Assembly: GCA_900544295.1 (NCBI GenBank)
Contig: UQUO01000011.1
Span: forward strand, 1 to 52,392
Length of the DNA stretch: 52,392 bases
Direction: 5' to 3'
Origin: an uncultured Eubacteriales bacterium
GTDB taxonomy: Bacteria; Bacillota; Clostridia; Oscillospirales; Oscillospiraceae
The translations under genes were made by a program, and so were the position numbers. The first letter of the stretch is position 1. Each line of letters begins with the position of its first letter. Below are positions 30,374 through 44,489 of this stretch, one piece after another. The notes below the pieces were generated by a model, which was not told the DNA's origin, did no database searches, and was given only the letters and a program-made list of their open reading frames with translations.

Positions 30374-32872
30374 TTACTTGGAGAGGAAGCGCATGATCAT
30401 GGCCGCAGCCTGCGCGCGGGTAGCAGTGGCGAGCGGAGTGAGAGCGCCGTTCTCGTCGCCCTCGGTGAGGCCAGACCCGCAGGCCCACTGGAAGGCGGAC
30501 ATCGCGTACTCGCTGATGCTGGTGGCATCGACGTAGCTCAGGATGTTGGTGCTCTCGCCCACGCTGACGTCATAGCCCTTTATCTGGGCGTAGCGGTACA
30601 GCATGGTGACGAGCTCCTGGCGGGTGATTGCCGCAGTCGGGTTCTCGCCGTCGGAGATGCCGTTGGTGATGACCCACTCCTGAGCCTTGGCGTACCAGCT
30701 GCTGCCGCCGGTGGTGTCAACGCCGCTCATGCGGGCGATGATGGTCCAGACCATCGCGCGGGTCAGCGTGTCGTTGGGCGCGAAGACGTAGGTGTCAACG
30801 CCGTCCATCAGCTTGTTCTCGTAGACGTACTTGACCGCGCTGTAGTACCAAGCGGAGCTGGAGACATCGTAGAACGGGAAGGTCGGGGTCTCAGGCTGCT
30901 CCGGCTGCTCCGGCTCGGGGACGTAGGGCGTGTCGGGGTGACGCACCCAGACGGCGGTGAAGGTCGTGTTGGCGGTGATGGTGACCTCCTGCAGCGCGCT
31001 ATAGGTCTTGCCATCGGAGCAAGCCCAGCCGAGGAAAGCGTAGCCGCTCTTTCTCGGGGCCGCGGGAAGGGTGACCGTGTCGCCAGATTTTACAACGCTA
31101 TACACGCTGCCGTCAACAGTGACTATGCAATTGCCCTTGGAAACGATGCTTCCTACCAGCTGGCCGTAAATTTCAGCAACGCCAGTTCCAAGATTGATGG
31201 CATTCGTCTTGTTGCCCCGGAGAATAACAGAGGAACTGGCATCAACATACAGGTTGAGAGGGGCGTTTTCATTATTAACGGTGTTAACATCCACATCATA
31301 ACTGGCCTTACTGTAAGTGGATTTAAACGGCAAATCGTCGCCGCTGTTTGTGATGGTTACAACACTGCCATTCTCGAAAGCAAACTTACCGCTGCCATTG
31401 GTGTTGAGGCAGAACAGCGCGCTCGTACCAACGTCATTCAGAGTTATACGGCTGTTATCAGCGGTCAGGCCATAGCAGCTGAACCCGTAATCTCCAACAC
31501 CGTTCATGGAAATCGTGCTGTCCTCAATGTTAAATACGCCGCCATTGGAGAAGTTTCCACGGTTGTTTTCGACCACGACGTAGGAGCCGATAATTTTGAC
31601 AGTGCTGCTGGCACCGCCGGGCATGACCGTGGCGCTTCTGATATCATTCAAAGTTACAACTGCGTTCTTAAAAGCAAGAGTGCTGTTACTTCTGATGTCG
31701 AAAGCTATGCTGTTAGTCTCATCGTCTTTACCGTTGACAGTAATATTAGCTCCGTCAAAAGTGAGCGTTTTGCCGTTGGATATTACAAAAAGGGTTTTGT
31801 CCAACTCATTAACAGTAATGGTACTTCCGTTGGCGCTTTTAATTACAAGGCTATTATCAATCGTATATGTATCAGCCGCAAGAGTGACATCCTGCAAAAG
31901 CGTTACGGTGTCGCCGTCTTTCGTAACGGCAGCAAGGGCGCTCTGGAGGCTGGTGTACTTGTCGCCATTGACCTCGGCAACAAAGTCTTCATCCTTAGCG
32001 AGGTCGCCGTTGGCGGTCTTGCTTATGGTCTCGTTTGCGGCCATGACTTTTACATAGTCAGATACCTCGCTTATACTTCCGCTCGCAAGAGCAGCTTTCG
32101 CAGCAGTTTCGGCGGCTCTGTTAGCCAGGTACGCCTTAAACACGACTACACCATATTCACTGGAAGTGGTCACGTTGCTGATAGTCACAGGGAACGCGCC
32201 GGTGGACGGAGCGGCCGCACCGCCATCACCCTTGGCAGCGCTGCCGAGGAGGATGACCGCAACATCGCTGTTGATTTTAACGTTCTCTATCAAAGCCGAC
32301 TCTATCGAAGCCGCGATTGGGGGGTTAACCCAATCATTGTTCTTAACATCCTTAGCCGCATCACCCTCGCCGTTGCGCTGGTTCAGCTTTATGGCGTTCT
32401 CACTATAAACGCCGGTGAAGGTGCTGTCCTTGATTACAACAGTGGCGTCAGTGACCTGGATAAGGTTCCAGTTGATGCCGTATGTGAGGCCAGTAGAACC
32501 AGCATTAAACGTGCAGCCTTCAATATAGAGCTCCTTGCAGTTGGACAGATACATGAATGAGGGATTAGCTTTGTCTTGAGCAGTGTTGCCCGTGAACTCG
32601 CAGTTAGTAATGGTCAGGTGCAGCTCGGGCGGGGTCTCCCAGCTCTGAACATTCGTCAGGTTGAAGCCGCTGCCGTCGAACTTCTGGCCGTCGATCTTCA
32701 GGTAAATGTCCTTACCGTTCCAACTGCCGTCAGCTATTGCCGTTTTATACGCGTCGACCGTGGTGAACGGGTTGTTTACCGTGCCATCCGGCCCATCCGC
32801 CAGCGCGGCGGCGGGGAGCAGGGACGCTACCATCAGCACAGCCAACAGCAGCGCCAGGATACTCTTCTTCAT
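30374..32872 (-). CDS. Secreted beta-helix protein with three C-terminal SLH domains
   Basis: An 832-residue exported protein. A signal peptide covers residues 1-25 (cleavage after ALA). Residues about 35-260 and 330-600 look like right-handed parallel beta-helix repeats of the pectate-lyase-like group (GSTITVNE, NGKTLTFDGANITVNG). Residues 606-642 resemble an InlB/Flg_new-type repeat (GYAFLGW, TFTAVW), followed by a Pro/Glu linker. Three SLH domains from residue 665 (WYYSAVKYVYENKLMDG) should bind pyruvylated secondary wall polymers. The central DNA is clearly less GC-rich than both ends. AGGAGG precedes the ATG. A surface adhesin or polysaccharide-binding role is inferred. Confidence 0.85.
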   Translation of the reverse strand: MKKSILALLLAVLMVASLLPAAALADGPDGTVNNPFTTVDAYKTAIADGSWNGKDIYLKIDGQKFDGSGFNLTNVQSWETPPELHLTITNCEFTGNTAQDKANPSFMYLSNCKELYIEGCTFNAGSTGLTYGINWNLIQVTDATVVIKDSTFTGVYSENAIKLNQRNGEGDAAKDVKNNDWVNPPIAASIESALIENVKINSDVAVILLGSAAKGDGGAAAPSTGAFPVTISNVTTSSEYGVVVFKAYLANRAAETAAKAALASGSISEVSDYVKVMAANETISKTANGDLAKDEDFVAEVNGDKYTSLQSALAAVTKDGDTVTLLQDVTLAADTYTIDNSLVIKSANGSTITVNELDKTLFVISNGKTLTFDGANITVNGKDDETNSIAFDIRSNSTLAFKNAVVTLNDIRSATVMPGGASSTVKIIGSYVVVENNRGNFSNGGVFNIEDSTISMNGVGDYGFSCYGLTADNSRITLNDVGTSALFCLNTNGSGKFAFENGSVVTITNSGDDLPFKSTYSKASYDVDVNTVNNENAPLNLYVDASSSVILRGNKTNAINLGTGVAEIYGQLVGSIVSKGNCIVTVDGSVYSVVKSGDTVTLPAAPRKSGYAFLGWACSDGKTYSALQEVTITANTTFTAVWVRHPDTPYVPEPEQPEQPETPTFPFYDVSSSAWYYSAVKYVYENKLMDGVDTYVFAPNDTLTRAMVWTIIARMSGVDTTGGSSWYAKAQEWVITNGISDGENPTAAITRQELVTMLYRYAQIKGYDVSVGESTNILSYVDATSISEYAMSAFQWACGSGLTEGDENGALTPLATATRAQAAAMIMRFLSK

Positions 32873-37023: not shown

Positions 37024-38145
37024 CTATCCATTCGGCAAAAACTTTTCCGCAGCGCGATACAGCCGCTCTCCACGCGCCTCAAAAAACTGTTTGTACGAAT
37101 TGCAGTAGTAATTCAGTCCAACAGAGCCGTCGGGCTGGCTGATGCGCTCTCTCCTGCACCCGTTTCTGCACAGGCGGTAAACCGGACACCCAGCACATTC
37201 CTCCGGGACAGCGCAAGAAGCGGAAACGAAACCTGCCGCGGTATCTGACTCGGAAAACTGGTCAAAGCTCTGCTCGCCGACCCTTCCAAGACAGTACTCG
37301 TCCAGCACGTAGAAATCGCATGGGTACACTCGCCCATCGCCCTCAACAACAAACTGAATGCTGCATCTGCCGTTCATAGAGCAGGCCTCCGGAGGCGAGC
37401 CCAGCAGCATGTGCAGCCAGTTATCGATGTGACGGATGCTCACATATTGCCCTTTCAAAAGGTCAGCATACCAGAGATCGAATATGCGTATGAGAAACCG
37501 TCCGTATTCATCCGGTTTCATGCTGTGAACGTCCCCATCTCGCCCGGAATTTAAAGGTTCAAGGCAAGGAATGAACTGGAGCCACTTAAAGCCATGCTTT
37601 TTGAAGAAGTTATAAATGCTTTCCGCCCGTTTGGCGCTCTGGGCAGTGACAACGCTGAGTATGTTGTATTCCGCGCCGGCTCTGTCCAGGAGATGCGCTG
37701 CATTCATGACCCTATTGAAAGTATCTTTGCCTGCCAAGTCCTTTCGGCAGCCGTTGTGTACATCAGCCGGTCCGTCCAAAGACAGGCCAACCAGGAAACC
37801 ATTAGACGCCAGAAACTCCGCCCACTGCTCATCAATAAGATATCCGTTCGTCTGGATAGCGTTGAATACCCTGACATCTTTTTTTGCGTATTTGCGCTCC
37901 AGCTCCAAGACAGCCCGGTAAAACCCGAGCCCGGCGAGAGTGGGTTCGCCGCCCTGAAACAGGAAAGTACAGTCTCTGTCGGCGTAGTCCAAGGCTGAAG
38001 CGATGAGCTTTTCCAGCGTGTCCATGGTCATGTATCCGGCAAAGCCCCTCTCTCTGTTTGCTGCCACATCCTTGTAGAAACAATAGCTACAGTTCATGTT
38101 GCATGCGGAAGAGGCTGGCTTTATGAGTACACTCAGCGGCGGCAT
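37024..38145 (-). CDS. Anaerobic sulfatase-maturating enzyme (radical SAM/SPASM)
   Basis: Converts a Cys or Ser in sulfatases to formylglycine. The 373 residues contain the radical SAM motif CNMNCSYC (15-22), the SAM-binding FQGGEPTL and a C-terminal SPASM region with many Cys (CSMNGRC, CDFYVLDEYC, CAGCPVYRLCRNGC) for two extra Fe-S clusters. A GGGGGAG ribosome site lies in the end of the upstream sulfatase/TauE gene, which it overlaps by 13 nt, so its substrate is probably that sulfatase. GC content is lower than in flanking regions, hinting at transfer. Confidence 0.9.
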   Translation of the reverse strand: MPPLSVLIKPASSACNMNCSYCFYKDVAANRERGFAGYMTMDTLEKLIASALDYADRDCTFLFQGGEPTLAGLGFYRAVLELERKYAKKDVRVFNAIQTNGYLIDEQWAEFLASNGFLVGLSLDGPADVHNGCRKDLAGKDTFNRVMNAAHLLDRAGAEYNILSVVTAQSAKRAESIYNFFKKHGFKWLQFIPCLEPLNSGRDGDVHSMKPDEYGRFLIRIFDLWYADLLKGQYVSIRHIDNWLHMLLGSPPEACSMNGRCSIQFVVEGDGRVYPCDFYVLDEYCLGRVGEQSFDQFSESDTAAGFVSASCAVPEECAGCPVYRLCRNGCRRERISQPDGSVGLNYYCNSYKQFFEARGERLYRAAEKFLPNG

Positions 38146-39671
38146 ATTACTTCTCCCCCAAACCTATAGGCATTGTACACGCACATTATTATAACTACCA
38201 CAAGAAAAACGGCAAGCAACTTATTTGTCGTCTCTGTAGATATCTTTTTGCTTATTTCGCTTCCAACAAGCCCTCCGAGTATACCCGCCGATACCATGAG
38301 CACAAGTTCCATAGGAACAAACTGGGGCACTGTACCCTTCAGGACACTTGAGGCCAGGTTTGACAGCTGTGAAAAAGCGATTATGTATAGAGATGTGGCC
38401 GCCGCCTTCTTGGTGTCCATGGAGAAAGCCAGGGTCAGGACGGCGATATTGATGGGACCGCCGCCAATGCCGAGGAAGGCCGAGCATACGCCCAAAAGCA
38501 CGCCGATCACGACGACAGCTGCCAGCCTGTGAATATGATATGTCGGCAAGCGCTCTTTAAGCCGGACAGTATACAACAGGGTGACGGCAGTGATGAGCCC
38601 CAGGGCTACTTTAAGCAGTTCATAATAACCCACATCCTCGCGTTCCGGCTCATAGCCGCTGCAAGCAGCTCGCAAAAGGCTCGTGCCTTGGGCAAAGCTC
38701 GGCAGCTCTGCTCCGCACATTTCCAGAATTGTGGGGAACAGATCCACAGCCGGGTCCACGATTTGGCTGACCCTCGTTCCGCCTGCAATGACAGATGGCC
38801 ACCTTATTGCCAGAGGAACGTGCGCGGACGCTTCATGGAAGCTCGACTTGTATTCCAGCCCATGCTCCCCACACATATCGCCATGGTCGCTCACAAAAAT
38901 GACGGCGGTGTTGTCAAAAATACCGTTCTCCCTGAGCCAGGCATCTATTCTTGCAAGCTGGTCATCTACACACGACACAAGCCCATAGTATTTTGCCCTG
39001 TAACGTGCGGAGGCCTCGGCTTTCCAGGAAGGCACGGTCGGAGGCAGCTCGACGTTCTCGGGCGAGTACATATTGAGATATGGCTCTACCGACATATCAA
39101 CGGGAGAATGAGGTATTCCGTAGCATATCATGGCCATAAACGGACGGTCATTCCGTACCATCCTGCCCATAAACTCCAACAGGTGGCCGGTCTGATACTC
39201 CGGCTCAAAGCGTCTGCTGGTACGTGGCGTCCTGTCGTCATTTCTGTAAAAAATACCGTTTATGTAATGATGCCCCCGACTATAGCCTATAAACTCGTCA
39301 AAGCCGAGCCTGTATTCTCTAGGGACATAATCGAACTTGTTCCCACCATTGAGATGCCATTTGCCTATCCAGGCTGTTTCATAACCCCTGGTCTTTACAG
39401 CCTGAGGCAGAAACGTCCCTGGCCAATTCAAGTTTATAGGATAGTGATTAGTACACATCCCGATACTGTGTGCATACGCGCCGCTCATTAGCGAAGCTCG
39501 AAACGGACAGCAGAGCGGAAAAGAGGTATATGCGTTTTCAAAATACGCGCCTGCCTCAGCCAAAGCATCAAAAGCAGGCGTTTTGACCAATTTGTTGCCT
39601 GAGCGGGATGTGGCGTCGTAACGCATTTGGTCAGGGTATATGAGTACTATGTTTGGGAGAGAAGAACTCAT
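38133..39671 (-). CDS. Chimera of a truncated sulfatase and the C-terminal half of a TauE/SafE permease
   Basis: A 512-residue open frame. Residues 1 to about 345 are a type I sulfatase with the formylglycine motif CCPFRASLMSG (Cys54), GKWHLNGG and metal site SDHGDMCGEHG. The C-terminal subdomain of sulfatases (roughly another 100-150 residues) is missing. From about residue 350 the sequence is a membrane protein like the second half of TauE/SafE (FLGIGGGPINIAVL, KKAAATSLYIIAFSQL), with four or five hydrophobic helices; its first half is missing. There is no signal peptide. It looks like an in-frame deletion joining two neighbours, near 38620-38640. It may be functional, a pseudogene, or an assembly error. 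Confidence 0.8.
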   Translation of the reverse strand: MSSSLPNIVLIYPDQMRYDATSRSGNKLVKTPAFDALAEAGAYFENAYTSFPLCCPFRASLMSGAYAHSIGMCTNHYPINLNWPGTFLPQAVKTRGYETAWIGKWHLNGGNKFDYVPREYRLGFDEFIGYSRGHHYINGIFYRNDDRTPRTSRRFEPEYQTGHLLEFMGRMVRNDRPFMAMICYGIPHSPVDMSVEPYLNMYSPENVELPPTVPSWKAEASARYRAKYYGLVSCVDDQLARIDAWLRENGIFDNTAVIFVSDHGDMCGEHGLEYKSSFHEASAHVPLAIRWPSVIAGGTRVSQIVDPAVDLFPTILEMCGAELPSFAQGTSLLRAACSGYEPEREDVGYYELLKVALGLITAVTLLYTVRLKERLPTYHIHRLAAVVVIGVLLGVCSAFLGIGGGPINIAVLTLAFSMDTKKAAATSLYIIAFSQLSNLASSVLKGTVPQFVPMELVLMVSAGILGGLVGSEISKKISTETTNKLLAVFLVVVIIMCVYNAYRFGGEVICRR

Positions 39672-39706
39672 GTTATCACCTTTTATGCATCTTTTTCTTC
39701 AACGGT

Positions 39707-39891: not shown

Positions 39892-42012
39892 TTACCACTG
39901 TGTCAGTTCGAGGTAGAGGTCCTTATACTGCCTGGCGGAGTTCTGCCAGGAGACATCCTTGGCCATGTCGCGCTGGACTACTTCGTCCCAGTGATAGCGG
40001 TTCGTGAAATACACGGTCTTGGCGCGGTTCACGGCGTCGAGCAGCAGGCCGGCCTCGTAGCGGTCGAAGGTGAAGCCGTTGCCGTCGCCGGTGAAGTCGT
40101 TGTAGGGCTCCACCGTGTCCTTCAGGCCGCCCGTCTCGCGGACGATGGGCAGGGTGCCATAGTGCATGGCGTTCAGCTGCGTCAGGCCGCAGGGCTCGAA
40201 GCGCGAGGGCACGAGCAGCGCGTCCGCGCCCGCGTAGATGCGGTGGGCGCGCGCCTCGTCGTACTGGATGCAGGCGCTGAAGGTGCCGCGGTTCGTCGCC
40301 TCGTACCAGCGGAAGGTGTCCTCATACTGCGCGTCGCCCGTGCCCAACACGACGACCTGGGTGTTGCCGTCGAGCACCTGCGGGATGATGCTGCTCACGA
40401 GGTCCAGGCCCTTCTGGTTGGTCAGGCGGGAGATGAGGCCTATTACGAACTTGCTCTCGTCCTCCTCCAGGCCCAGCTCGCGCTGCAGGGCGCGCTTGTT
40501 GGCCATCTTGTGCTCCAGCACGTTGCCGAGCCAATAGTTCTCCGCAAGGGCGGGGTCGGTCGCGGGGTCCCACATTTTGTAGTCTATGCCGTTCACGATG
40601 CCGCGCAGCTTCCAGTTGTGATAGCGCAGGTGGCCCTCAAGGCGCTCGCCGTACTCGGGGGTCTGGATCTCGGCGGCGTAGGTGCCGCTGACGGTGGTTA
40701 TGCGGTCGGCATAGGCGAGGCCGCCCTTGAGCATGTTGGCCTCGACATAGTCCTGCTGCAGCGCACCCATGTTGAACACGCTGTCGGGCAGGCCGGACCA
40801 GTACTTGATGGTGGGGATGTTGTAGACGCCCTGGAAGCGGAGGTTGTGGATGGTGAGGATGGACTTGGCGCGGCCCACGGGCGTGTCATGGAACAGGGTT
40901 CGCAGGTAGACAGGCACCAGCGCCGCCTGCCAGTCGTGGCAGTGAACGATGTCCGGTATCCAGTCCATATAATTCAGCGCGGCCAGCGCGGCCTTGCTGA
41001 AGAAGCAGTACTTCGGGATGTCGTCCACGAGGTTCAGGTAGGGATTGCCGGAGGAAAAGAACTCCTGGTTGTCGATGAAGTCGTATACGACGCCGTCGTT
41101 TATATACTCCATGATGCCGACGTAGTAGCTGCGGCCGGTGTTGCCGAGGTCCATGTAGAACTCGCCGCGGTAGACCATCTTGTCCTGGTACTCCTGCGGG
41201 ATGCAGGCATAGCGGGGCAGGATGACGCGCACGTCGCAGTTCAGGCGGGCAAGCTCACGGGGCAGGGCGTACATGACGTCGCCCAGGCCGCCGGTCTTGA
41301 CAAAGGGGTGGCACTCGGAGCCTATAAACGCCACGCTGCGGCGCGGCAGGGTGGACATGTCGAACACGGGCTGGGCCTCCTCAACGGCAGCAGCCTCCTC
41401 AGCGGGGGCGGCTTCAACAGCGGCGGGCTCCGCCGCAACGGCGGGAGCCTCTTCAACGACAGGAGCGGCATCGACCACCGGGGCCTCCCCGGACGCAGGC
41501 TGGGCCTCGACCGCGGGAGCGGCCTCGACCACCGGCGCCGCCGCAACGGCGGGGGCCTCTTCAACGACAGGAGCGGCCTCGACAACGGGCGCTGTCTCCG
41601 CGGCGACGGGGGCGACATCCTCTACCACCGGGGCGGTCTTCTTAGACGCGGACTTGCGGGCGGCGGGCTTCTTCTCAGCCGGCTTTTCGGAGGCAGGCGC
41701 AGCCTTCTTCGCGGCAGAGGCGGGCTTCTTCGCGGAGGAGGCGGCTTTCTTAGGGGCTGCCTCCTTCTTCTCGGCGGGCTTTTCCGCAGCAGGCTTCTTC
41801 TCCTCAGGCTTCTCAGCGGCGGGAACGGCCTTCTCAGCGGCAGGGGCCGCCTTCTTGGCAGTGGAGGCGGGCTTCTTCGCGGGGGCCTTCTTCGGGGCGG
41901 CCTCCTTCGGGGCGGCCTCCTTCTTTTCCGCGGGCTTTTCGGCCTGCGGGGCCGCGCTTTCCTTTGTCTCTGTTATCTTCTCATCAATGGTGTCTGTTTT
42001 CTTCCGTGCCAT
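39892..42012 (-). CDS. glgA: Glycogen synthase with a 218-residue low-complexity N-terminal tail
   Basis: ADP-glucose-dependent glycogen synthase (GT5). Residues 219-706 form a standard GlgA with KTGGLGDVMYALPREL near the start and SRFEPCGLTQLNAMHYGT in the acceptor/donor site. Before it stands a tail: residues 1 to about 125 are rich in Lys, Ala, Pro and Glu (KPAEKKEAAPK-like repeats, reminiscent of histone H1-like proteins), and about 126-218 are acidic and rich in Val, Ala, Glu and Pro. AAAGGAAG before the first ATG and the uninterrupted frame support the long protein. An internal Met at 219 (41358) lacks a well-spaced ribosome site. The tail's role is unknown; adhesion to a polymer or localisation is possible. 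Confidence 0.9.
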   Translation of the reverse strand: MARKKTDTIDEKITETKESAAPQAEKPAEKKEAAPKEAAPKKAPAKKPASTAKKAAPAAEKAVPAAEKPEEKKPAAEKPAEKKEAAPKKAASSAKKPASAAKKAAPASEKPAEKKPAARKSASKKTAPVVEDVAPVAAETAPVVEAAPVVEEAPAVAAAPVVEAAPAVEAQPASGEAPVVDAAPVVEEAPAVAAEPAAVEAAPAEEAAAVEEAQPVFDMSTLPRRSVAFIGSECHPFVKTGGLGDVMYALPRELARLNCDVRVILPRYACIPQEYQDKMVYRGEFYMDLGNTGRSYYVGIMEYINDGVVYDFIDNQEFFSSGNPYLNLVDDIPKYCFFSKAALAALNYMDWIPDIVHCHDWQAALVPVYLRTLFHDTPVGRAKSILTIHNLRFQGVYNIPTIKYWSGLPDSVFNMGALQQDYVEANMLKGGLAYADRITTVSGTYAAEIQTPEYGERLEGHLRYHNWKLRGIVNGIDYKMWDPATDPALAENYWLGNVLEHKMANKRALQRELGLEEDESKFVIGLISRLTNQKGLDLVSSIIPQVLDGNTQVVVLGTGDAQYEDTFRWYEATNRGTFSACIQYDEARAHRIYAGADALLVPSRFEPCGLTQLNAMHYGTLPIVRETGGLKDTVEPYNDFTGDGNGFTFDRYEAGLLLDAVNRAKTVYFTNRYHWDEVVQRDMAKDVSWQNSARQYKDLYLELTQW

Positions 42013-42279: not shown

Positions 42280-43104
42280 TCAGCAATTGCCCGTATAGAC
42301 ATATTTCAGCCTTTCCCGCGCGACGTCGGCAAGCCGGTATACCCGCTCGACCGGCGTGGGCGGCATATCGCGCATCAGGTGGCGTGGGAAGAAACGGGAG
42401 AGGTGCAGGGGGATCTCGGGGCTTATGGAGGCGAGCCAGGCGGTCAGCTCCCGCATCTCATGCTCGCCGTCGTTGCAGCCGGGGACGAGGAGCGTAGTCA
42501 CCTCCAGGTGACAGGCCCGCGCCGCAAGCTCTATGGAGCGCATGACTGCACTGAGGTCCCCGCCCAGGCGGCGGTACCAGTCTTCAGTGAAGCCCTTGAG
42601 GTCAATATTCACGGCGTCGATGAGCGGGAGCAGCTCCTGCCAGGGCTCGGGCTCGATCGTGCCGTTAGTGACAAGGACGTTCACAAGGCCCGCCTTTCGC
42701 GCCAGGGCGGCGCAGTCGCGGATGTACTCAAAGCCGACCAGCGGCTCGTTGTAGGTGTAGGCCAGGCCAATATTCCCGCGCGTGCGCAGCCCGAGGGCCA
42801 GCTGCACAAGCTCTTCCGGCGGGCAGTCGCGCGCAGGAAAGTCCTCGCCCGCGGTGGATATCTCGGCGTTCTGGCAAAAGGGGCAGCGCAGGTTGCAGCC
42901 GAAACTGCCCGCGGAGAGGATGAGACTGCCGGGGCGAAAGCGGCGCAGGGGCTTCTTTTCGATGGGGTCGAGGGCGAGGGAGGTCAGCCTTGCGTAGCCC
43001 AGCGGGACGATTCGCCCGCCCCTGTTCGCCCGCGCGCGGCACAGGCCCGTCTGCCCCTCGGCCAGCCGGCAGCGGTGGAAGCAGAGGCCGCACTGTGCGC
43101 TCAT
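42280..43104 (-). CDS. amrS: AmmeMemoRadiSam system radical SAM enzyme
   Basis: A 274-residue radical SAM protein of the AmrS group, related to pyruvate formate-lyase activases. The cluster motif is CNLRCPFC (70-77). Four N-terminal cysteines (5, 8, 12, 22) form a second CxxCxxxC-type cluster or metal site typical of this group. TYNEPLVGFEYI and VTNGTIEPEPW are characteristic. The natural substrate is not known. The ATG overlaps the upstream AmrB-AmrA gene (ATGA), showing a two-gene unit. Confidence 0.9.
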   Translation of the reverse strand: MSAQCGLCFHRCRLAEGQTGLCRARANRGGRIVPLGYARLTSLALDPIEKKPLRRFRPGSLILSAGSFGCNLRCPFCQNAEISTAGEDFPARDCPPEELVQLALGLRTRGNIGLAYTYNEPLVGFEYIRDCAALARKAGLVNVLVTNGTIEPEPWQELLPLIDAVNIDLKGFTEDWYRRLGGDLSAVMRSIELAARACHLEVTTLLVPGCNDGEHEMRELTAWLASISPEIPLHLSRFFPRHLMRDMPPTPVERVYRLADVARERLKYVYTGNC

Positions 43105-44489
43105 TTGTGCCTCACCACCTCGAAACGTGCGAGCTCATAGGGCTCGTCCGCGCGGATGCCGCCCTTTTGCAGCGCTATGCGCAGCTGCTGCCAGGCCGTG
43201 TCCACGCCGTCCAGGTCGGGCAGCAGCAGGCCGCGCCTGCTGCCTCTTGTGACGATGACGCCGTAGCGTCTGGGCTCAAGCTCCGCGGCCGAGGCGATGG
43301 GCTCGGGCTCTCCCAGGACGTCCACGCTGTATTCGAGACCGGCCAGCTCCCCGGCCTTCACGGGCGGGAAGCGCGGGTCATGAGCGCCGGCTGAGACGGC
43401 GTTGCGGACTATCTCCCAGGCAAGGCTGCCCTGCGTGGGCGCGATGGTGCCGATACAGCCGCGCAGACGTCCCCCGGCGTGCAGGGAGACGAAGGCGCCG
43501 GCGGCCCTGCCCGTCAGCTCGGCTGGAAGACCGTCGGGCAGGGTGTCGAGGCTCCGACCGGTGCGCACATAGGTTTCGAGCGAGAGGCGGGCAAGACGGA
43601 CCCAGGCATCCTCGCCGGAGCGGCGCGCATCCGCCCGTTCGCTCATAACGCGCTCGTAGGCGGCCTCGAAGCGGCGGCCCTCGTCCCTGCCCGTAACGGG
43701 GAAGAGCGCCACGGCATAGCCGACGCCGAAGGGCCCCTCGTGACTCAGCAGCTCCGGCGCGACGGCCAGGCCGTCCAGCGCGCCGGACATCATCTGGAAA
43801 GCGCGCAGGCCGCACTCCGCCGCCCGCTCGCAGAGGGAAGGCTCGATGGCGAGGAAGCTCAGAAAGTCGCCCGAGGCCATCGCCCCGGTCACGGCCTCGT
43901 CGAAGGCCGGTCCCTCCGGGGCGAAGCCGTATGGGCCGTCGGCGCGCAGCTTGTGCGAGAGGTCGCCGCTGGCGACAAAGACGGCGCGGCGGCCGAGCTT
44001 TTCCACCGCCCTGGCGGCGCAGCGGCCGAGCCGGTAGTGCTCGAGCGGGGAGAAGCCCGAGAGGCCCACGCGCACTATGGGGCAGGAGACGCCGGCCCGG
44101 CGCAGGTAGTAAAGAGGTATGAGGGTGCCGTGGTCTAGCTCCTCCCCTCGCTGGCCGAGCGTCCCGGCCTCAAGGCGCGAGTCCCGGGCAAGGCGGATTA
44201 TTTCTTCACGCAGCTGCGCGTCGTATTCCGTCTCGACCTGCAACTGCGGCGCGCCGAAAGCGGACATGTCGCCCCGGGCGCTTTTGCCGGGGGAGATGTG
44301 GAAGTAGTCGCTGTACATGACCGTGTGCGGGGAGGCGACGACGAGCACATCGGGCGCCCAGTGCGCCACCGCCTCCGCCGCCGCGCGCATGGCCCGCTCC
44401 GTAGCCGCGATTTCGCTCTCCCGCCCGCGCCCCACCTCCGGCAAAAGCACCGGCGGATGCGGCATCAGAACAGCCCCAAGCATGGACAT
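43101..44489 (-). CDS. Fused MEMO-like/extradiol dioxygenase and AMMECR1 domain protein (AmmeMemoRadiSam)
   Basis: A 462-residue two-domain protein. Residues about 5-265 resemble class III extradiol dioxygenase/MEMO1 proteins (MPHPPVLLPEVG, ASPHTVMYSDYF, ELDHGTLIPL, FVASGDLSHKL), with His residues that could hold iron. Residues about 280-460 form an AMMECR1 domain, with the hallmark GRLRGCIGTI. Both partners of the AmmeMemoRadiSam set are thus in one chain, next to amrS. The start at 44489 has AGGAG 9 nt ahead. The biochemical role of the system is not established. Confidence 0.88.
   Translation of the reverse strand: MSMLGAVLMPHPPVLLPEVGRGRESEIAATERAMRAAAEAVAHWAPDVLVVASPHTVMYSDYFHISPGKSARGDMSAFGAPQLQVETEYDAQLREEIIRLARDSRLEAGTLGQRGEELDHGTLIPLYYLRRAGVSCPIVRVGLSGFSPLEHYRLGRCAARAVEKLGRRAVFVASGDLSHKLRADGPYGFAPEGPAFDEAVTGAMASGDFLSFLAIEPSLCERAAECGLRAFQMMSGALDGLAVAPELLSHEGPFGVGYAVALFPVTGRDEGRRFEAAYERVMSERADARRSGEDAWVRLARLSLETYVRTGRSLDTLPDGLPAELTGRAAGAFVSLHAGGRLRGCIGTIAPTQGSLAWEIVRNAVSAGAHDPRFPPVKAGELAGLEYSVDVLGEPEPIASAAELEPRRYGVIVTRGSRRGLLLPDLDGVDTAWQQLRIALQKGGIRADEPYELARFEVVRHK

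Follow-up and report, generated by a model that had tools for sequence, protein, structure and literature searches.

The 52,392-nucleotide stretch of an uncultured Eubacteriales contig analysed here (the window) contains a minus-strand open reading frame at 38133–39671 in which a truncated sulfatase is joined in frame to the second half of a TauE/SafE permease. It is very probable that this ORF is a deletion allele, formed by the joining of two separate genes, with both activities most likely lost and the locus in decay. The frame begins with ATG, has no internal stops and encodes 512 residues, composed of sulfatase residues 1–355 followed by TauE residues 110–266. Both Pfam domains score above their curated cut-offs: PF00884 (Sulfatase) covers residues 6–320 (E = 7.5e-48), and PF01925 (TauE) covers residues 352–495 (E = 1.7e-21), the latter matching only positions 91–235 of the 237 in the profile. 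The sulfatase part (38607–39671, minus strand) contains a C54-x-P56-x-R58 sequence, which we take to be the formylglycine motif, together with D262-H263; the C-terminal subdomain is absent. The TauE/SafE part (38133–38606, minus strand, including the stop codon) encodes residues 356–512 and comprises most of transmembrane helix 4 (TM4) followed by TM5–8, as assigned from a model of an intact TauE protein. Comparison with intact parents places the deletion junction at 38604–38609 on the same strand, where the GTA codon of Val355 (38607–38609) is followed by the GCC codon of a TauE alanine (38604–38606). The first-pass annotation had described a sulfatase reading in frame into the last four or five helices of TauE/SafE near residue 350; the join can now be fixed exactly after Val355, and a structure model of the fusion contains five helices from residue 349 onward.

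Both parents exist as intact proteins. When the fusion was searched against ~5.8 billion proteins, 520 matches were obtained among 7998 scored candidates, and the best 120 of the 520 were considered. Among these, the best match (P0001) is the fusion itself, also 512 residues long, and the second (P0002) is an intact 465-residue sulfatase that agrees with the window at 352 of the 355 residues up to the junction (three differences). A separate search with the C-terminal 160 residues (713 matches, best 120 considered) identified P0121, an intact 266-residue TauE protein identical to the window at 156 of 157 shared residues (one difference). These two proteins are near-identical to the respective halves, but are separate and full-length. 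In one relative both proteins are complete: the sulfatase P0004 (82% identical to P0002) and the TauE protein P0122 (83% identical to P0121). For each of them the longest contig is stated to be 32182 bases, so the two likely lie on one contig. The proposal that a deletion cut the sulfatase short at its C-terminus and the permease at its N-terminus while preserving the frame is therefore upheld by near-identical intact parents for both halves. Separate parent genes are represented by P0002, P0121, P0004 and P0122, and their adjacency as DNA is seen only in a more distant locus described below. The stated cluster sizes (148 members for P0001, 10 for P0003, 278 for P0002 and 109 for P0121) are not usable as allele frequencies; they may include fragments, and the contigs tabulated number one each for P0001, P0002 and P0003 and two for P0121. 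The unfused state may be ancestral: none of the listed homologues beyond P0001 and P0003 has both domains, and the fusion is without invariant segments.

The same junction recurs outside this contig. A search with residues 345–512 among proteins 0.55–1.75 times the size of the fusion gave 33 matches, and a sulfatase domain accompanies TauE in two of these 33 long TauE matches, P0001 and P0003. P0001 shares the junction and departs from the window at residues 219 and 377. P0003 (367 residues) also shares the junction and agrees with the window throughout their common part, apart from three residues at the P0003 N-terminus. The two come under different sources (lgn and ena, respectively), and the junction is thus neither a chance feature nor private to this contig, which makes a private misassembly unlikely. 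Judged from these sequences, the deletion fusion is real and recurrent, so far only in near-identical sequences. The window and P0001 both have Ala91 in place of the Thr of P0002 and P0004, in agreement with a single origin of the fused alleles. A 5-nt deletion in the window frame near codon 148 reproduces the P0003 start in a scripted comparison, and none of the 1-, 2- and 4-nt insertions tried does so. The P0003 representative therefore looks frameshifted in its sulfatase half, or contains an error of that form; such a frameshift could reflect an assembly error, and would otherwise fit decay of the locus. The P0001 frame, by contrast, is open, with no stop or frameshift despite its two residue differences, and this counts against decay. 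We rejected a conserved fusion family as an explanation: among the matches listed, only P0001 and P0003 are fused, and both are near-identical to the window. Neither of the two outcomes that the first-pass annotation had set against its own proposal has thus appeared, since the junction recurs in proteins that differ from the window elsewhere and no established family of such fusions emerged among those matches.

We propose that one illegitimate deletion with 0–2 bp of microhomology would have joined the sulfatase gene to tauE. The deletion would have removed at least 660 nt, comprising the last 110 sulfatase codons and the stop, any spacer and the first 109 tauE codons, with breakpoints and size estimated from proteins of other strains. 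P0002 has Ser at position 356, immediately after the junction Val, and P0121 has Ile at position 109, immediately before the junction Ala. Ser codons never start with G, and no more than the last two bases of an Ile codon can coincide with GTA. The overlap at the junction would therefore be 0–2 bp, provided that the parent strain has the same residues as P0002 and P0121. Repeat-mediated recombination was rejected on account of this overlap of at most 2 bp. The reading frame would have been preserved either fortuitously (odds of about 1 in 3) or because ribosomes that continue to the tauE stop still feed the overlapping maturase gene. The 512-residue product would be translated from the old sulfatase start, which is preceded by a Shine-Dalgarno-like AGGTGA (39676–39681, minus strand) 4 nt before the ATG. 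The sulfatase/permease locus would then decay while the maturase stays intact.

The invariant positions indicate what the deletion would have cost each parent. An alignment of 27 sulfatases has 62 invariant columns, of which 52 lie in the retained part and 10 in the lost segment (P0002 residues 356–465), including R374, G375 and R377. Of the 54 invariant columns among 26 aligned TauE proteins, 33 are retained and 21 fall within lost residues 1–109. TauE/SafE proteins are built from eight helices in two repeats; the fusion lacks TM1–3 and the start of TM4, and with them the first repeat and its GIGGG motif. As the C-terminal sulfatase subdomain and the first TauE repeat are both gone, the sulfatase and exporter activities have probably both been lost. 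All 11 likely catalytic or motif residues that were checked are kept (D14, Q15, C54, P56, R58, K104, H106, H188, D262, H263 and K275), with C54, P56, R58, D262 and H263 invariant in the 27 sulfatases, and the catalytic core is accordingly present in the fusion.

The retention of these residues speaks for a different reading, in which the fused product would be an active cytoplasmic sulfatase tethered to the membrane, with its core held by the second TauE repeat. A hydropathy scan detects no hydrophobic segment before residue 351, the loop charges would allow normal insertion of TM5–8 behind a cytoplasmic domain, and the P0001 frame is open. Human steryl sulfatase is a membrane-held sulfatase, anchored by helices of its own. 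It is among the fold matches (8eg3) and resembles the fusion sulfatase in both fold and sequence (PDB 8eg3, 1p49); unlike the fusion, however, it is a complete enzyme rather than a truncated one joined to half of a transporter. The first-pass annotation had raised a tethered cytoplasmic sulfatase on condition that the fusion is real and expressed; its topology would be feasible, but we consider a working tethered enzyme improbable. Ten invariant C-terminal columns are gone, the TauE half is without its first repeat and GIGGG motif, among the matches listed none of the more distant proteins and genomes searched shows such a fusion, and the P0003 form looks frameshifted.

The predicted structures are compatible with a deletion allele, and they are insensitive to the cost of truncation. 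In the model of intact TauE (mean pLDDT 86), the break falls inside a helix spanning residues 100–125, which we take as TM4. Confidence in the model of the fusion (mean pLDDT 84) is mostly good across the sulfatase core, except for residues 271–280, where the value falls to 58 and limits the reading of this region. Of the five C-terminal helices in this model, the first (349–371) is built from both parents, and the model is weak at the junction, with block means of 70 and 63 for residues 341–360. Loop charges put the native TM2–3 loop, the TM4–5 loop and the C-terminal tail inside, suggesting that both TauE ends face inside and that the native TM4 runs inward, from the outer to the inner face. 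Downstream of a cytoplasmic sulfatase the TM4 remnant would be misdirected, while TM5–8 could insert normally. The best solved-structure fold matches to the intact TauE model (m98d495ade17b) are to the undecaprenyl-pyrophosphate phosphatase BacA (TM ~0.6, Foldseek E = 1.3e-3 and 8.5e-3). They hint at a fold shared by TauE and BacA, with no Foldseek match at E <= 0.001; the TauE sequence has no match to solved structures up to E = 1.

The gene that follows the fusion (37024–38145, minus strand) encodes an anaerobic sulfatase maturase of the radical SAM/SPASM type. It scores 469.1 bits against NF010321 (cut-off 441) and 389.7 bits against TIGR03942 (cut-off 349.45), and the latter match spans residues 6–364 of 373. 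The 5′ end of this gene overlaps the 3′ end of the fusion by 13 nt, which substantiates the earlier remark that a maturase gene overlaps the fusion end. A Shine-Dalgarno-like GGGGGAG (38153–38159, minus strand), located 7 nt before the maturase ATG, lies inside the tauE coding end and is kept in the fusion, and both genes are probably translatable. This arrangement raises the question of whether selection for translational coupling preserved the frame: loss of the sulfatase and exporter would have been tolerable or even useful, but an out-of-frame join would uncouple the maturase, which may serve other sulfatases. The 13-nt overlap and the ribosome site inside tauE agree with coupling, but the maturase has that site for its own use, the P0003 representative looks frameshifted upstream, and one event cannot separate selection from a 1-in-3 chance of retaining the frame. 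We regard selection for coupling as very unlikely.

The gene order expected of the unfused ancestor occurs elsewhere. The 33 loci with a TauE match reduce to 27 distinct loci after identical tauE ends are merged, and a maturase gene adjoins tauE in 11 of these. The window order, tauE then maturase, is seen in three loci (L024, L027 and L082), the reverse order in six (L093, L096, L097, L099, L101 and L103) and a divergent arrangement in two (L090 and L091). No maturase was found beside tauE in the other 16, many of which are only ~3.4 kb long. In L027, a sulfatase, ~1.1 kb containing a GntR-like piece just under the Pfam cut-off, tauE and the maturase follow one another on one strand, so that the suggested ancestral order of sulfatase, tauE and maturase exists as DNA in one other, more distant locus. 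L104 has three sulfatases followed by tauE. The sulfatases of L027 and L104 are only 26–30% identical to P0002. The association suggests that the sulfatase frees sulfate in the cytoplasm, TauE exports the anion and the maturase serves the sulfatase. TauE proteins are described as exporters of small anions such as sulfite in a published study, where the sulfatase is of the metallo-beta-lactamase type (PMC10413263).

A deletion allele of this sort brings together a known type of event, a deletion-born fusion, and a known type of locus. In a 2026 preprint (PMC12803068), Kaul et al. report 44 candidate deletion-born fusions in isolate genomes of five species. As in those cases, the new ORF here would owe its origin to a deletion that brought pieces of separate genes together, and unfused alleles exist alongside it. 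Whereas that work screened isolate genomes and inferred ancestral states on trees, our comparison draws on clusters of public proteins. One fusion in the preprint, narX, is attributed to a deletion within one operon, with no function identified; the word ‘sulfatase’ is absent from its main text. Signatures of positive selection form the commonest class among the 44, and an open fusion need not therefore be dead. The fused allele might accordingly have been kept because its product works, with the sulfatase core carried on TM5–8 and perhaps a dimer that rebuilds a two-repeat channel for export of the released sulfate; we think this highly improbable. For the locus, a close parallel is a pneumococcal island in which a sulfatase, a sulfatase modifying factor and an adjacent TauE gene occur together, as do the sulfatase, maturing gene and TauE neighbour here. 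In some pneumococcal strains a deletion has taken out the sulfatase together with a portion of the modifying factor (PMC3283741). In the window, by contrast, the maturase is kept and the sulfatase and tauE are joined, and the portion of the pneumococcal study that we consulted mentions no in-frame fusion. The fusion described here offers a clean case of neighbouring genes with linked functions joined in frame by a deletion, and near-identical intact alleles are public as well. If such joins are common, metagenome protein catalogues would hold multi-domain ‘fusions’ that are mere loss alleles, and interactions predicted from gene fusion would need to be checked against them. The case also adds to the material for asking whether open fusions gain function before decaying.

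Beyond the near-identical alleles, the fusion did not turn up in the relatives' genomes searched. Of 400 genomes drawn from the family to which Flavonifractor sp. An100 belongs, 50 gave a match at E <= 1e-30 (with up to three candidates scored per genome), and matches were obtained in 27 of the 64 genomes of its genus (all candidates scored); none of the listed matches in either set spans both halves. TauE matches in the family genomes extend back across the junction by at most 29 residues (from residue 327). In 76 loci from a scan of genome contigs, no sulfatase match runs more than 33 residues past the junction (the farthest, in L019, ends at residue 388), and TauE matches extend back to residue 343 (L032) or 276 (L028), the L028 match lying within a 260-residue TauE frame. 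No ORF of at least 120 residues in the 108 fetched loci is matched by both parents at E <= 1e-15. A scan of viral contigs with the fusion and a plasmid megablast gave no match, and no sulfatase–TauE fusion is named in the titles or abstract openings of the papers listed by the literature searches.

An assembly artefact, in which two complete genes were collapsed or chimeric reads joined, is extremely unlikely: the window is a single assembly and the single-member TauE variants P0123 and P0124 show odd joins of tauE in public assemblies, but the junction is common to two sources whose sequences differ from the window elsewhere, and a shared stretch of at most 2 bp would be too short to lead a k-mer assembler into a repeat-based join. 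P0123 and P0124 are themselves variants of an almost identical TauE. In one an internal segment is lost, and in the other the TauE C-terminus runs together with a portion of an ABC transporter membrane domain (PF00664); they may be either further deletion alleles or misassemblies.

The fusion and maturase genes form a low-GC stretch (37024–39671, minus strand; GC 0.51–0.53, GC3 0.55–0.62) within GC-rich surroundings. Corresponding GC and GC3 values are 0.65 and 0.87 for the neighbouring glgA and 0.66 and 0.78 for a DUF6765 gene, suggesting that the stretch was acquired. The putative glycogen synthase gene glgA (39892–42012, minus strand), recognised from its translation, lies 220 nt upstream of the fusion. 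Its closest counterpart among the 400 family genomes is 86% identical in DNA, and in ten relatives' loci (some of them only 4–12 kb long) a search for an empty site or a shared neighbourhood beside glgA gave the glgA match only. The host probably belongs to the Oscillospiraceae, close to Flavonifractor. The putative synthase has a long Ala/Lys/Pro-rich N-terminal extension, and in five of the six homologue matches the alignment begins only at residue 225–227. Farther upstream, a radical SAM gene immediately adjoins one that encodes LigB and AMMECR1 domains (42280–44489, minus strand). This pair resembles the AmmeMemoRadiSam trio, whose role is unknown, with two members fused. A second low-GC stretch of the window encodes an SLH-domain protein (30374–32872, minus strand) with Listeria-Bacteroides-type and InlB-type repeats.
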